Positions 6,906 to 26,335 of a stretch of 34,340 nt of DNA are shown here, in pieces. Source of the DNA: an uncultured Alphaproteobacteria bacterium (GTDB lineage Bacteria; Pseudomonadota; Alphaproteobacteria; RF32; CAG-239); the NCBI GenBank assembly GCA_944392265.1, contig CALXWC010000019.1, positions 1 to 34,340 of the forward strand, written 5' to 3'. Each line of letters begins with the position of its first letter. Within the stretch, counting starts at the first letter, position 1. The translations under genes were made by a program, and so were the position numbers. The notes under the pieces were generated by a model, which did no database searches, had not been told where the DNA came from, and was given only the letters and a program-made list of their open reading frames with translations.

Positions 6906-6936
6906 AAAGCCCGCCTTAAAAAGCGGGCTTTTTTTG
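6906..6936 (+). terminator. Intrinsic terminator of the RND operon
   Basis: AAAGCCCGC pairs with GCGGGCTTT around a short A-rich loop and is followed by seven T. It sits about 20 bases after the pump stop codon. An almost identical hairpin lies at 9048-9077, after the next gene. Confidence 0.92.
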
Positions 6937-6975: not shown

Positions 6976-7004
6976 TTGTCAAATAAAAGAAATCATAGTA
7001 TCAT
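6976..7004 (+). promoter_or_regulatory. Sigma-70-type promoter of the Cys-rich gene
   Basis: TTGTCA (6976-6981), a 17-base spacer and TATCAT (6999-7004) lie between the RND terminator and the next gene. Transcription would start near 7011, leaving a leader of about 35 bases that contains GAGGAG at 7032-7037, 9 bases before the ATG. Confidence 0.7.
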
Positions 7005-7046: not shown

Positions 7047-9023
7047 ATGTTTAAGTCTAAATTTATTAGATTTCTGACTTGTCCCTTTTTTATAGTCGGG
7101 AGTCTTTGTTTGTTTATCGAATCTGCTGACGCAAATCCTCCTCAAGTGACGGCTATGCCGGAAGGTTCTTATCAATTGGCTCGTTCTATTTTTTTACCTG
7201 AAGCAAATGATGATGTTTGGTTGTCTAATTATAATAAAGCTCCCAATGATTACAATCAAAGCCCATGTAAAAAAATGGGATATCCTTTGAAAAACCAATG
7301 TCCTGATCATGGTAATTGTTCTAAATGCCCTACTGATTCAAACTATTTTAAGCTTGATTCTTGTAATAATGATGGATCACAAAGATATCAAGTTTCATCA
7401 GACCGAACTTCTTGTAAAAAAGTTTGTAACGTACAAACTTGTAATACATCCACTTACTTTATGTCAACTTGTCCGGATGGTATGGACTGCGACAAATGTA
7501 CCGAAGTTAAATCCGATTGTACAACTATCGTACATTTAAAACCAACCACCAGATGTATTTCTGGTTTCCACTATGAAGGTGGTCGCTGTGTTAAAGACTG
7601 TGCTGAAGTAAAATGTGGCCCAGGATACGGCATCTACAAAGAATGGAAAGATCAATGTGCTAAAGGATATTTATGTACAAAACGATCTACAGATTATCAA
7701 ACCACAGATTGTAAAACCGGATCTTGCTACCAATATAAAGGTTGCGACGAAGCTAACGGATATTTTAAGCCGAGTTGGTCTTCTGGCGGTGAATGTGAAT
7801 ACATGGCATGCTATCAAACGGCAACAAACTGCGCCGGATATTCATTTACATCTTGTCCGGCTAACGGTGTGTGCGATGACTCTTGCACAGTCAAAAATAA
7901 AGATTGTTCTACAAAAGAAACAAAATATAACCTTACAGGTTGTGCATCAGGATATCATTTTAATAGCACTAAGACAGCTTGTGATAAAGACTGCTTGAAA
8001 GATTCAGTCGGTACTTATCCTAATACTGTATATTATGCTCCGATATATAAAACAGAGATAGAATGTGAAAATGCAGAAGGTGTTTCACAATGTATGTCTC
8101 GTTATGTTAACACAGATGCACAATGCAATACGTCAATATACTATATTCCGGCAAGATGTGAAACCGGATATAAAATGGTTCAAAACAAAACCACTGAAAA
8201 CGGATATCCTAAAACCACTTTCAAATGTGAAAAAGAAAACATCTGCCCAATTGAAGAATATCCGATAACAGATAAAAATTATTGTAAAGACATGGATGGT
8301 ATTTGTACTGGATGTAAATGTAATGAATGTACAGAAACCGATGGTAGCAAACACTATGGCTGCACTGAATATTCTAATTGTCCTAGTGATATGAGCGGAT
8401 ACATTACTGAAGAAGAATTCAACAAACTCCGTGAAAAGAATCTTAGATTAAAATATGTGTGGTGTTGGTCTTTAAATAAAAATTGCGATGTTCCTTCAAT
8501 GTTCAAAATCACTGGTGAATGCGCAGTAGGAGAAATTGCTGACGGAGAAAAATGTAATAAAGATAATACTGGAGGTTCTTCAGAAACACCTGAAGAGAAA
8601 TCTCCTCTGGAATTGGTATTTGCAGTTGGTAGTAGTTGGTCATATAATGATGCCTACGATGAAAATAAACCTGTTATTTCAATAAGATTACGCGGAAATA
8701 ATAGATCTATTGATATCCCTGTAGATCAAAAAACTCTGTATATGGCCCGCAGTGACTGGACAGATTCCAGATATAAAACATTCTGCAAATATCTGCAACC
8801 TTTAACAAAAGAGGACATGGAGATATTTATGGCTAATCATGCAGCTCTTGTTGAAGTATTAGAAAAAATTAAATATGCTCCAAATGTAAACCCTGATCTT
8901 TCATCTTCGTTGAAGCTTTTTGATTGCTATATCACGTCTACCCAGCCATATTATGGTAATGTGAAAGATAAAACTATTTATACAACTGGATCATGCCAAC
9001 TTCTTAGAATATGCAAAAGATAA
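7047..9023 (+). CDS. Large secreted cysteine-rich protein of unknown function
   Basis: A 658-aa protein with an N-terminal signal peptide (hydrophobic stretch about 8-24, probable cleavage after ADA near residue 29). About 52 Cys follow the signal, roughly one in twelve residues and mostly within 74-505. The Cys occur in recurring units: a CP-x(3-5)-C-x(2)-C start, then C-x-SG-[FY]-H and a closing C-x-KDC. Two copies align well (about 140-185 and 268-316), and a more diverged one is at 84-127. After a charged linker (about 505-525) comes a different, Cys-poor C-terminal domain (about 528-658) that ends with CQLLRICKR. There is no membrane anchor or sorting signal. The Cys density implies disulphide-bonded modules in the periplasm or outside. 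It is transcribed alone between two terminators. I cannot name a family; I recall similar Cys-rich proteins only from uncultured gut Alphaproteobacteria. Confidence 0.85.
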   Translation: MFKSKFIRFLTCPFFIVGSLCLFIESADANPPQVTAMPEGSYQLARSIFLPEANDDVWLSNYNKAPNDYNQSPCKKMGYPLKNQCPDHGNCSKCPTDSNYFKLDSCNNDGSQRYQVSSDRTSCKKVCNVQTCNTSTYFMSTCPDGMDCDKCTEVKSDCTTIVHLKPTTRCISGFHYEGGRCVKDCAEVKCGPGYGIYKEWKDQCAKGYLCTKRSTDYQTTDCKTGSCYQYKGCDEANGYFKPSWSSGGECEYMACYQTATNCAGYSFTSCPANGVCDDSCTVKNKDCSTKETKYNLTGCASGYHFNSTKTACDKDCLKDSVGTYPNTVYYAPIYKTEIECENAEGVSQCMSRYVNTDAQCNTSIYYIPARCETGYKMVQNKTTENGYPKTTFKCEKENICPIEEYPITDKNYCKDMDGICTGCKCNECTETDGSKHYGCTEYSNCPSDMSGYITEEEFNKLREKNLRLKYVWCWSLNKNCDVPSMFKITGECAVGEIADGEKCNKDNTGGSSETPEEKSPLELVFAVGSSWSYNDAYDENKPVISIRLRGNNRSIDIPVDQKTLYMARSDWTDSRYKTFCKYLQPLTKEDMEIFMANHAALVEVLEKIKYAPNVNPDLSSSLKLFDCYITSTQPYYGNVKDKTIYTTGSCQLLRICKR

Positions 9024-9047: not shown

Positions 9048-9077
9048 AAAGCCCGCCTTAGGAAAGCGGGCTTTTTT
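9048..9077 (+). terminator. Intrinsic terminator of the Cys-rich gene
   Basis: AAAGCCCGC pairs with GCGGGCTTT and is followed by six T. It differs from the hairpin at 6906-6936 at only a few loop positions. Confidence 0.9.
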
Positions 9078-9083
9078 AATAAT

Positions 9084-9118
9084 AAGAAACCCACCGAAAA
9101 CATCGGTGGGTTTCTTGT
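9084..9118 (-). terminator. Intrinsic terminator of the outer-membrane protein gene
   Basis: A perfect 14-bp stem (9084-9097 with 9103-9116) surrounds the 5-base loop AAACA. It lies just past the stop of the minus-strand outer-membrane protein gene. The minus strand reads into TTATTATTAAAAAAG, a modest T-rich tract. The plus side also reads TTTCTTGTTCTTG, so it could back up the previous terminator. Confidence 0.75.
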
Positions 9119-9131
9119 TCTTGATATTTTT

Positions 9132-21390: not shown

Positions 21391-21416
21391 AATCCCCTTA
21401 TTTAGGGGATTTTTTA
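21391..21416. terminator. Bidirectional terminator overlapping the mscL stop
   Basis: AATCCCCT (21391-21398) pairs with AGGGGATT (21404-21411), with T-runs on both strands. The stop codon of the minus-strand mscL gene (21398-21400) lies at the loop edge, so one arm on that strand is coding sequence. Confidence 0.85.
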
Positions 21417-21886
21417 TTACTCAAAGAAGATGTACAATGCGGACATTTTATTGCCTTTTCCGGAATTACGGAACAACAATACGGGCAAATTTTAGAAGCA
21501 TTTTTTTCTAAATTATTTTCTCCACGCTCTAATTTATCTCGCAAAGTATTAATCGCTTTAATTAGTAAAAACACGGCAAAAGCCACAATGATAAAACTGA
21601 TTAGAGCATTAAAAAAAAGCCCCAGATTAAGCGTAATCGCACCATCTTCTGCGGCTTGAGCCAATGTATTATAATCTGTCTGATGTTTTCCTGATTTTAA
21701 GACAACAAACAAATTACTGAAATCGACCTTGCCGAGCAAAAGTCCAAGCGGCGGTAATAAAATATCTTTAACTAAAGAGTCAACAATTTTTCCAAAACTT
21801 GCCCCGATAATGACACCAACAGCCAAATCAACGGCATTTCCACGCAAAGCAAATTTCTTAAATTCAGAAAACAAAGACTTTAACAT
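21398..21886 (-). CDS. mscL: Large-conductance mechanosensitive channel MscL with zinc-ribbon tail
   Basis: A 162-aa MscL. The N-terminal helix (LFSEFKKFALRGNAVDLAVGVIIG, here FKKFALRGNAVDLAVGVI) and TM1 with FGKIVDSLVKDILLPPLG match the family well. A loop follows and then TM2 (FFNALISFIIVAFAVFLLI). The pentameric channel opens when membrane tension rises and releases solutes on hypo-osmotic shock. Beyond the normal cytoplasmic helix there is an extra CPYC-x(10)-CPHC zinc-ribbon-like tail (about 134-152). E. coli MscL (136 aa) ends before such a tail. Start ATG 21886; AAGGAG overlaps the slyX stop. It follows slyX by 14 bases. Confidence 0.93.
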   Translation of the reverse strand: MLKSLFSEFKKFALRGNAVDLAVGVIIGASFGKIVDSLVKDILLPPLGLLLGKVDFSNLFVVLKSGKHQTDYNTLAQAAEDGAITLNLGLFFNALISFIIVAFAVFLLIKAINTLRDKLERGENNLEKNASKICPYCCSVIPEKAIKCPHCTSSLSNKKSPK

Positions 21887-25654: not shown

Positions 25655-26335
25655 TTAATCCATATCGCGCATTTTTCTGCGCTTTTTTCTATCTTCTTTT
25701 TGTTGTTCTCGTCTGGCTTTTTCTTTTGCCTTCATTTGTTCTTTAATCGCACGTCTCTCTTCTTTAGTCATATTGCGACGCTCTTCTCTGCGTGCTTTGT
25801 ACAGCATCTTAAGTTCTTCTTTAATTGCACGACGTTCTTCTTTGGTCATATTACGGCGTTCTTCTCGGCGTGCTTTAAGTGCATCTGTCACTTTTTCATT
25901 ATACTCAGAGTTTGAATAATTCGCTTTTGCAGCTTGTTCTTTAGCCTCTTGACGCTCTTTTCTAACCTTTTCCAACAATTCTTGCGGAGAAAGCTTTAAG
26001 TTTTCCTGAATTTCTTTTAAGCTTCTTTTTTTATATCCACCGATATATGGTTGAACATTTTCTTCTGCTGTTTTTTCTTGAGAAGTTTGCTCTTGGCTTA
26101 AGCTTTCTTCATTGGCTGTTTTTTGAATAGTTTCTTGAGTTTGTTGTTGTGCCAATTCTGCTTTTTTCTTTGCCACGTTATCAATTTTATAAATACGCTG
26201 TTGGCCGGAAATAACTGTTGTTCCGCCGGTTGTAACTTGTCCGTATGCCCCATCGACAACATTAACATTTTGTGCCCAAACAACAGGGCTGAACAATGTT
26301 AAAATCAAAGCCAAAGACCATTTTTCTTTATTCAT
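25655..26335 (-). CDS. Secreted basic protein with 26-residue tandem repeats
   Basis: A 226-aa protein. The signal peptide ends at VVWA-QN (about residue 21). The early mature part has short Gly/Thr-rich strands (GAYGQVTTGGTTVISGQQRIYKI), followed by a Gln/Glu/Thr-rich stretch (58-95). The C-terminal half is almost entirely charged helix. Two near-perfect copies of a 26-residue unit, KARREERRNMTKEERRAI followed by 8 less conserved residues, occupy 154-179 and 180-205; a partial third copy starts at 206. The MTKEERR core faintly recalls the LTxxQR motif of Spy/CpxP periplasmic proteins, but I would not assign it. The function is unknown; a periplasmic chaperone-like or nucleic-acid- or LPS-binding role would fit the charge. 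Divergent from a Nudix gene across 72 bases. Confidence 0.75.
   Translation of the reverse strand: MNKEKWSLALILTLFSPVVWAQNVNVVDGAYGQVTTGGTTVISGQQRIYKIDNVAKKKAELAQQQTQETIQKTANEESLSQEQTSQEKTAEENVQPYIGGYKKRSLKEIQENLKLSPQELLEKVRKERQEAKEQAAKANYSNSEYNEKVTDALKARREERRNMTKEERRAIKEELKMLYKARREERRNMTKEERRAIKEQMKAKEKARREQQKEDRKKRRKMRDMD
25721..25876 (-). repeat. Two tandem 78-bp coding repeats
   Basis: Copy 1 is 25799-25876 and copy 2 is 25721-25798, in frame in the secreted basic protein. The protein copies differ only in their last six residues or so, while the DNA differs at many third positions, so the duplication is not very recent. Confidence 0.85.

Follow-up and report, generated by a model that had tools for sequence, protein, structure and literature searches.

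Exported cysteine-rich modular proteins with differing C-terminal domains form a multigene family in uncultured Alphaproteobacteria

Introduction

What might an uncultured alphaproteobacterium do with a large exported protein that is unusually rich in cysteine? The gene in question lies in a 34,340-nucleotide stretch of contig CALXWC010000019.1 (assembly GCA_944392265.1), referred to here as the window. An earlier note on this DNA had left several roles open: a surface structure, an adhesin, a toxin or a metal binder. The adhesin-like and surface options fit best, because several paralogues carry C-terminal domains (here, heads) of the Lcl_C/Fib_succ_major type, and nothing was found in favor of a toxin or a metal store. 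We assign a probability of roughly 0.6 to the reading in which the product belongs to a multigene family and acts at the cell surface as an adhesin-like protein that binds a ligand, with exchangeable heads on a stalk braced by disulphides. Its location at the surface, its ligand, its role in binding or adhesion, and the rigidity of the stalk are putative throughout.

The gene and its immediate surroundings

The open reading frame (7047..9023, forward strand) starts with ATG and reads through uninterrupted to encode 658 amino acids. The protein contains 54 Cys residues, 50 in residues 1 to 511 and 4 in residues 512 to 658. Two of these (C12 and C21) fall within the signal peptide, a hydrophobic segment read by eye as residues 1 to 29 and ending in ADA (7047..7133, +), and the other 52 lie downstream of it. 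The reading frame, the signal peptide, and this count bear out the earlier description of an exported protein with about 52 Cys, and the C-terminal domain is, as had also been proposed, distinct and Cys-poor.

Shortly after the signal peptide comes the signature SYQLARSIFLPEANDDVW (7167..7220), which sequence comparison finds to be common to the genus; this and the following protein features are all on the forward strand. An N-terminal Cys cap (C74 to C123; 7266..7424), which includes a partial module (residues 77 to 109), precedes module 1 (C127 to C185; 7425..7601) and module 2 (C255 to C316; 7809..7994). The rest of the Cys-rich stalk (residues 317 to 503; 7995..8555) contains no detected module and leads through a linker (8556..8594) to the C-terminal head (residues 514 to 658; 8586..9020). 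No anchor was identified for the protein.

Terminator-like hairpins lie on both sides of the gene: one follows the upstream efflux operon and separates it from the gene (6906..6931, +), and two stand between the gene and a convergent porin-like gene (9048..9119, no strand assigned). Their placement suggests a monocistronic unit. The "strong dedicated promoter" proposed earlier has weak support: the promoter-like site TTGTCA-17-TATCAT (6976..7004, +) has 10 of 12 matches, but such sites number 12 in the region versus a mean of 11.3 in shuffled sequence, which is not above background. Elsewhere in the window, inspection by eye picked out a channel protein resembling MscL and extended at its C-terminus by a zinc-ribbon-like CPYC...CPHC segment (21398 to 21886, -) and an exported protein with repeated KARREERRNMTKEERRAIKE units (25655 to 26335, -).

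Repeated eight-cysteine modules

The motif CP-x(3-5)-C-x(1-3)-C occurs three times (at residues 85, 142, and 270) versus 0.16 expected from shuffles of residues 30 to 511, of which 2 of 5,000 reach three occurrences. The two full units (C127 to C185 and C255 to C316) are 37% identical. As an independent gauge, a module HMM was built solely from the modules of L035, a paralogue in a different genome, with the window protein left out. This model retrieved both (residues 127 to 184, E = 6.8e-8; residues 258 to 309, E = 4.9e-14) and gave a partial third match at residues 77 to 109 (E = 8e-4). The earlier claims of repeated modules with a characteristic CP start and of growth by duplication are thus both upheld. 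Each module has 8 Cys and about 57 residues; the window protein contains about 3 of them and L035 about 15.

A multigene family with a constant N-terminal part

The search for paralogues that had been suggested earlier was productive. The window genome (G000) contains at least five family members, with relatives on contigs C11, C2, and C22 (two), and each of the six genomes in the genus has several. Members in the genus share one architecture: behind the signal peptide come the segment (S)YQLAxxxFLP[DE] and a Cys cap, next 8-Cys modules in varying number, and last a C-terminal domain; these C-terminal domains are unrelated. The window protein belongs to this family, as it has the signal peptide and the (S)YQLAxxxFLP[DE] signature and its modules match a profile built without it. 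Among the loci examined, the looser pattern [FYW]LP[DENG] falls within residues 16 to 90 in 23 of 45 Cys-rich ORFs versus 5 of 249 others, a count that describes the set rather than testing it independently, as the loci were chosen partly by that signature.

In the wider taxonomic family, 42 of 152 genomes, from 10 of its 16 genera, match the N-terminal profile; for the module by itself, the number of genera with a match is 11. Outside it, among 385 genomes spread over the class, one genome matches weakly (E = 6.5e-8). The protein family is therefore almost confined to one taxonomic family of uncultured alphaproteobacteria. Named matching records are mostly MAGs of uncultured Alphaproteobacteria; one record, L034, bears the label Opitutales, probably because its contig was misbinned.

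Gene content also differs at corresponding positions. In one slot with the same neighbors, the single gene on contig C2 of G000 (L008) encodes a weakly Lcl_C-like head, and the G002 counterpart (L036) is a tandem pair with different heads. A second conserved gene group is flanked by a 1,484-residue member in G002 (L035) and by one of 804 residues in another MAG (L039). Downstream of AcrB, G001 and G002 have other genes. In G003, G004, and G005 (L087, L088, and L089), no more than about 250 bases separate the AcrB-type gene from the end of the contig. The G005 end falls inside a signal peptide of the type seen in this family, so its repeats may interrupt assemblies. The idea that G004 has the window in circularly permuted form was considered and dropped: the porin there lies at a contig end that, by eye, reads into an rRNA-type leader. 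In G002, the counterpart of a contig C22 gene (L009:6762-8360), with the same neighbors, is split over two frames and has no intact start (L037:5047-6653), as would be expected of a decaying copy.

Mosaic stalks and probable exchange of heads

Comparison with the C11 paralogue from the same genome places the change between stalk and head at the linker. From 7668 to about 8580, the two genes are 93% identical in nucleotide sequence; past about 8580, identity falls to 38 to 61% per 50-base block. By codons, the stalks are 90% and the heads about 27% identical in amino acid sequence. Contig C11 breaks off within the near-identical stretch, and the comparison accordingly covers C11 without its N-terminal part. 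The two heads are still homologous (blastp, 26% identity, E = 2e-10), with differences that include gaps and are spread over the whole domain. Beyond these two, no relative of the head was found in 136 genomes of the taxonomic family.

Within the stalk, an island at residues 179 to 240 (7581..7766, +) is 95% identical in amino acid sequence and 76% identical at third codon positions to L034, the paralogue in another MAG, versus flanks that are 49 to 69% and about 50 to 60% identical, respectively (third positions of the adjoining stretches, 52% and 49%). Because identity rises at third positions too, the island points to sharing or conversion of this segment and not just to selection on the protein. 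We infer recombination as the cause of exchange in both stalk and head; very fast selection could instead have produced the head divergence.

According to the main rival to the binding reading, the proteins form a variable coat or decoy, with antigenic or receptor variation directed against host immunity, phage, or predators and with binding secondary, much like the Cys-rich variant surface proteins of Giardia. The number of paralogues, the mosaic nature of the stalks, and the differences between heads speak for it, as does the break of contig C11 within a near-identical stretch, which is expected of recombining repeats. However, the genes sit singly in separate slots flanked by ordinary genes, incidental observation rather than a systematic search gave no sign of expression switching or silent cassettes, and no reverse transcriptase of a diversity-generating retroelement (DGR) was found in the window genome. 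We regard a coat or decoy as unlikely.

DGR variable proteins themselves share with this family a variable C-terminal domain, but the window and C11 heads differ along their full length, gaps included. DGR-driven variation in the window genome was set aside, as no reverse transcriptase (PF00078) match was found in G000, which is 82% complete. Reverse transcriptase genes (PF00078) are present in G002 (L135), the sole genome of the genus with them.

Probable disulphides and the oxidation machinery

The modules themselves offer a reading of how some of the cysteines are paired. In 97 distinct modules, the third and fourth Cys (C3 and C4) are jointly lost in 13 and singly lost in 3 (odds ratio 520, p = 3.6e-13). 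After clustering at 80, 60, and 50% identity, p is 2e-12, 4e-8, and 8e-5, respectively; all of these values serve as guides, since the modules share ancestry. Even so, the joint loss turns up repeatedly among dissimilar modules from several genomes. Because C3 and C4 are lost together and the other six Cys are kept, the pattern fits a dispensable C3-C4 disulphide, the one pair of the module connectivity that we infer.

A check for DsbA and DsbB had been proposed, and its outcome was divided. Each of the six genomes in the genus encodes DsbA-family proteins, but neither DsbB nor VKOR gave a match in any of the six, in searches that both worked in control genomes. The disulphide-rich modules proposed earlier are probable, given the C3/C4 co-loss and DsbA; the failure to find DsbB or VKOR counts against them. 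A Cys-rich relative in another genus (L123:76-1977) has a C-terminal thioredoxin domain (E = 2e-10) and is perhaps an oxidoreductase for this protein class.

If the cysteines were instead metal ligands or a thiol pool, the product would be a metal or redox protein, a reading that could draw on the failure to find DsbB and VKOR and on a Cys-rich relative in another genus that combines a thioredoxin domain with a below-cut-off rubredoxin-like stretch. The concerted loss of C3 and C4 is what losing a disulphide would look like, however, and the N-terminal signal peptide points to export; we consider the metal or redox reading very unlikely.

Database matches, predicted structure, and known systems

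The window protein has no Pfam match at E ≤ 1, no NCBIfam match, and no PDB match by sequence, and the module profile has no significant PDB sequence match. Viral contigs, phage records, and plasmid records likewise gave no match. A match to a named family, which the earlier note had listed as counterevidence, was therefore not found in these collections, and its statement that such a protein is unusual in bacteria agrees with both this result and the narrow distribution. The structure prediction proposed earlier gave fair confidence in the module region only. In the full-protein model (mean pLDDT 48), residues 71 to 180 and parts of 261 to 370 reach about 70 to 85 and the tail is below 35, whereas a single-sequence model of the head alone (pLDDT 41) was not usable. 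Foldseek with the predicted model gave a best E of 0.26. Nine weak structural matches (Z of 2.1 to 2.8) are to EGF-like or TNFR-like modules (Pfs25, 4-1BB, and CD40), which is a hint at most.

Among paralogues, the L038 head matches Fib_succ_major (PF09603) above cut-off (E = 1.5e-10), the L039 head matches Lcl_C below cut-off (E = 7e-4), and the L036 and L041 heads have beta-helix-like repeats by eye. Heads in other genera include DUF285, PKD, and thioredoxin domains. The window's own head resembles nothing known: neither the whole protein nor the head alone matches PF07603 or PF09603. The possibility that it is a decayed Lcl_C found no support in a profile comparison (hhalign probability of 0.1% against Lcl_C-like paralogue heads, with a profile of two sequences).

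The closest known layout is that of Lcl, the Legionella collagen-like protein, whose C-terminal domain (PF07603/DUF1566) is C-type-lectin-like, binds glycosaminoglycans, and forms the tip of a collagen-like stalk (PMC11162425). Both are exported and place a C-terminal head on an extended repeat stalk, and some paralogues have Lcl_C/Fib_succ_major-like heads; the window stalk, however, consists of Cys-rich modules rather than collagen, and its head is not detectably Lcl_C. By layout, the window protein may work like Lcl, and it is not a member of the Lcl head family, because its head fails both the Pfam and the profile tests. Eukaryotic EGF-like, TNFR, and ephrin-receptor-like modules (PF07699 and PF12662) are small tandem disulphide modules, as those of the window protein probably are, but the window protein has no sequence match to the Pfam models. 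cEGF matches paralogues weakly. Two Cys-rich relatives in another genus (L056:1-2892 and L120:529-3075) match Ephrin_rec_like (PF07699), a domain named for animal receptors, above the Pfam cut-off. As a lead only, the variant surface proteins of Giardia are likewise exported, Cys-rich, and encoded by numerous paralogues in a large family; the present family differs in being bacterial, and the window protein has only 4 CxxC motifs.

The least probable reading is a secreted toxin, or an effector of antagonism, whose C-terminal domain is polymorphic. The constant N-terminal part and differing C-terminal domains do resemble a polymorphic toxin layout, but no immunity-gene-like ORF lies downstream (terminators are followed by the convergent porin-like gene), no toxin family matched above cut-off, and several paralogue heads are binding-type domains.

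A proposed working model and its meaning

For the adhesin-like reading, we propose the following sequence of events. The protein would be exported by Sec, after which DsbA-type oxidation would probably pair the Cys of the tandem ~57-residue modules, yielding a rigid, protease-resistant stalk. The (S)YQLAxxxFLP[DE] N-terminal segment would be the constant part and the C-terminal domain the variable working head, with a glycan, mucus, or a host or neighbor surface as its candidate ligand. Members would diversify by gain and loss of modules and by recombination between paralogues, such that the stalk is kept and the head exchanged.

More tentatively, and with doubt outweighing confidence, the family may be the bacterial equivalent of the variant surface protein families known from eukaryotes, with heads swapped by recombination, binding specificities particular to each species or strain, and a new module fold. 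Animals and parasites are where tandem disulphide modules of the EGF/TNFR type typically occur. If this extension is true, a bacterial lineage would have assembled for itself a large and shuffling set of proteins with such modules, and the family would offer a test of disulphide making without a recognizable DsbB or VKOR, as well as a way to study surface variation in symbionts.
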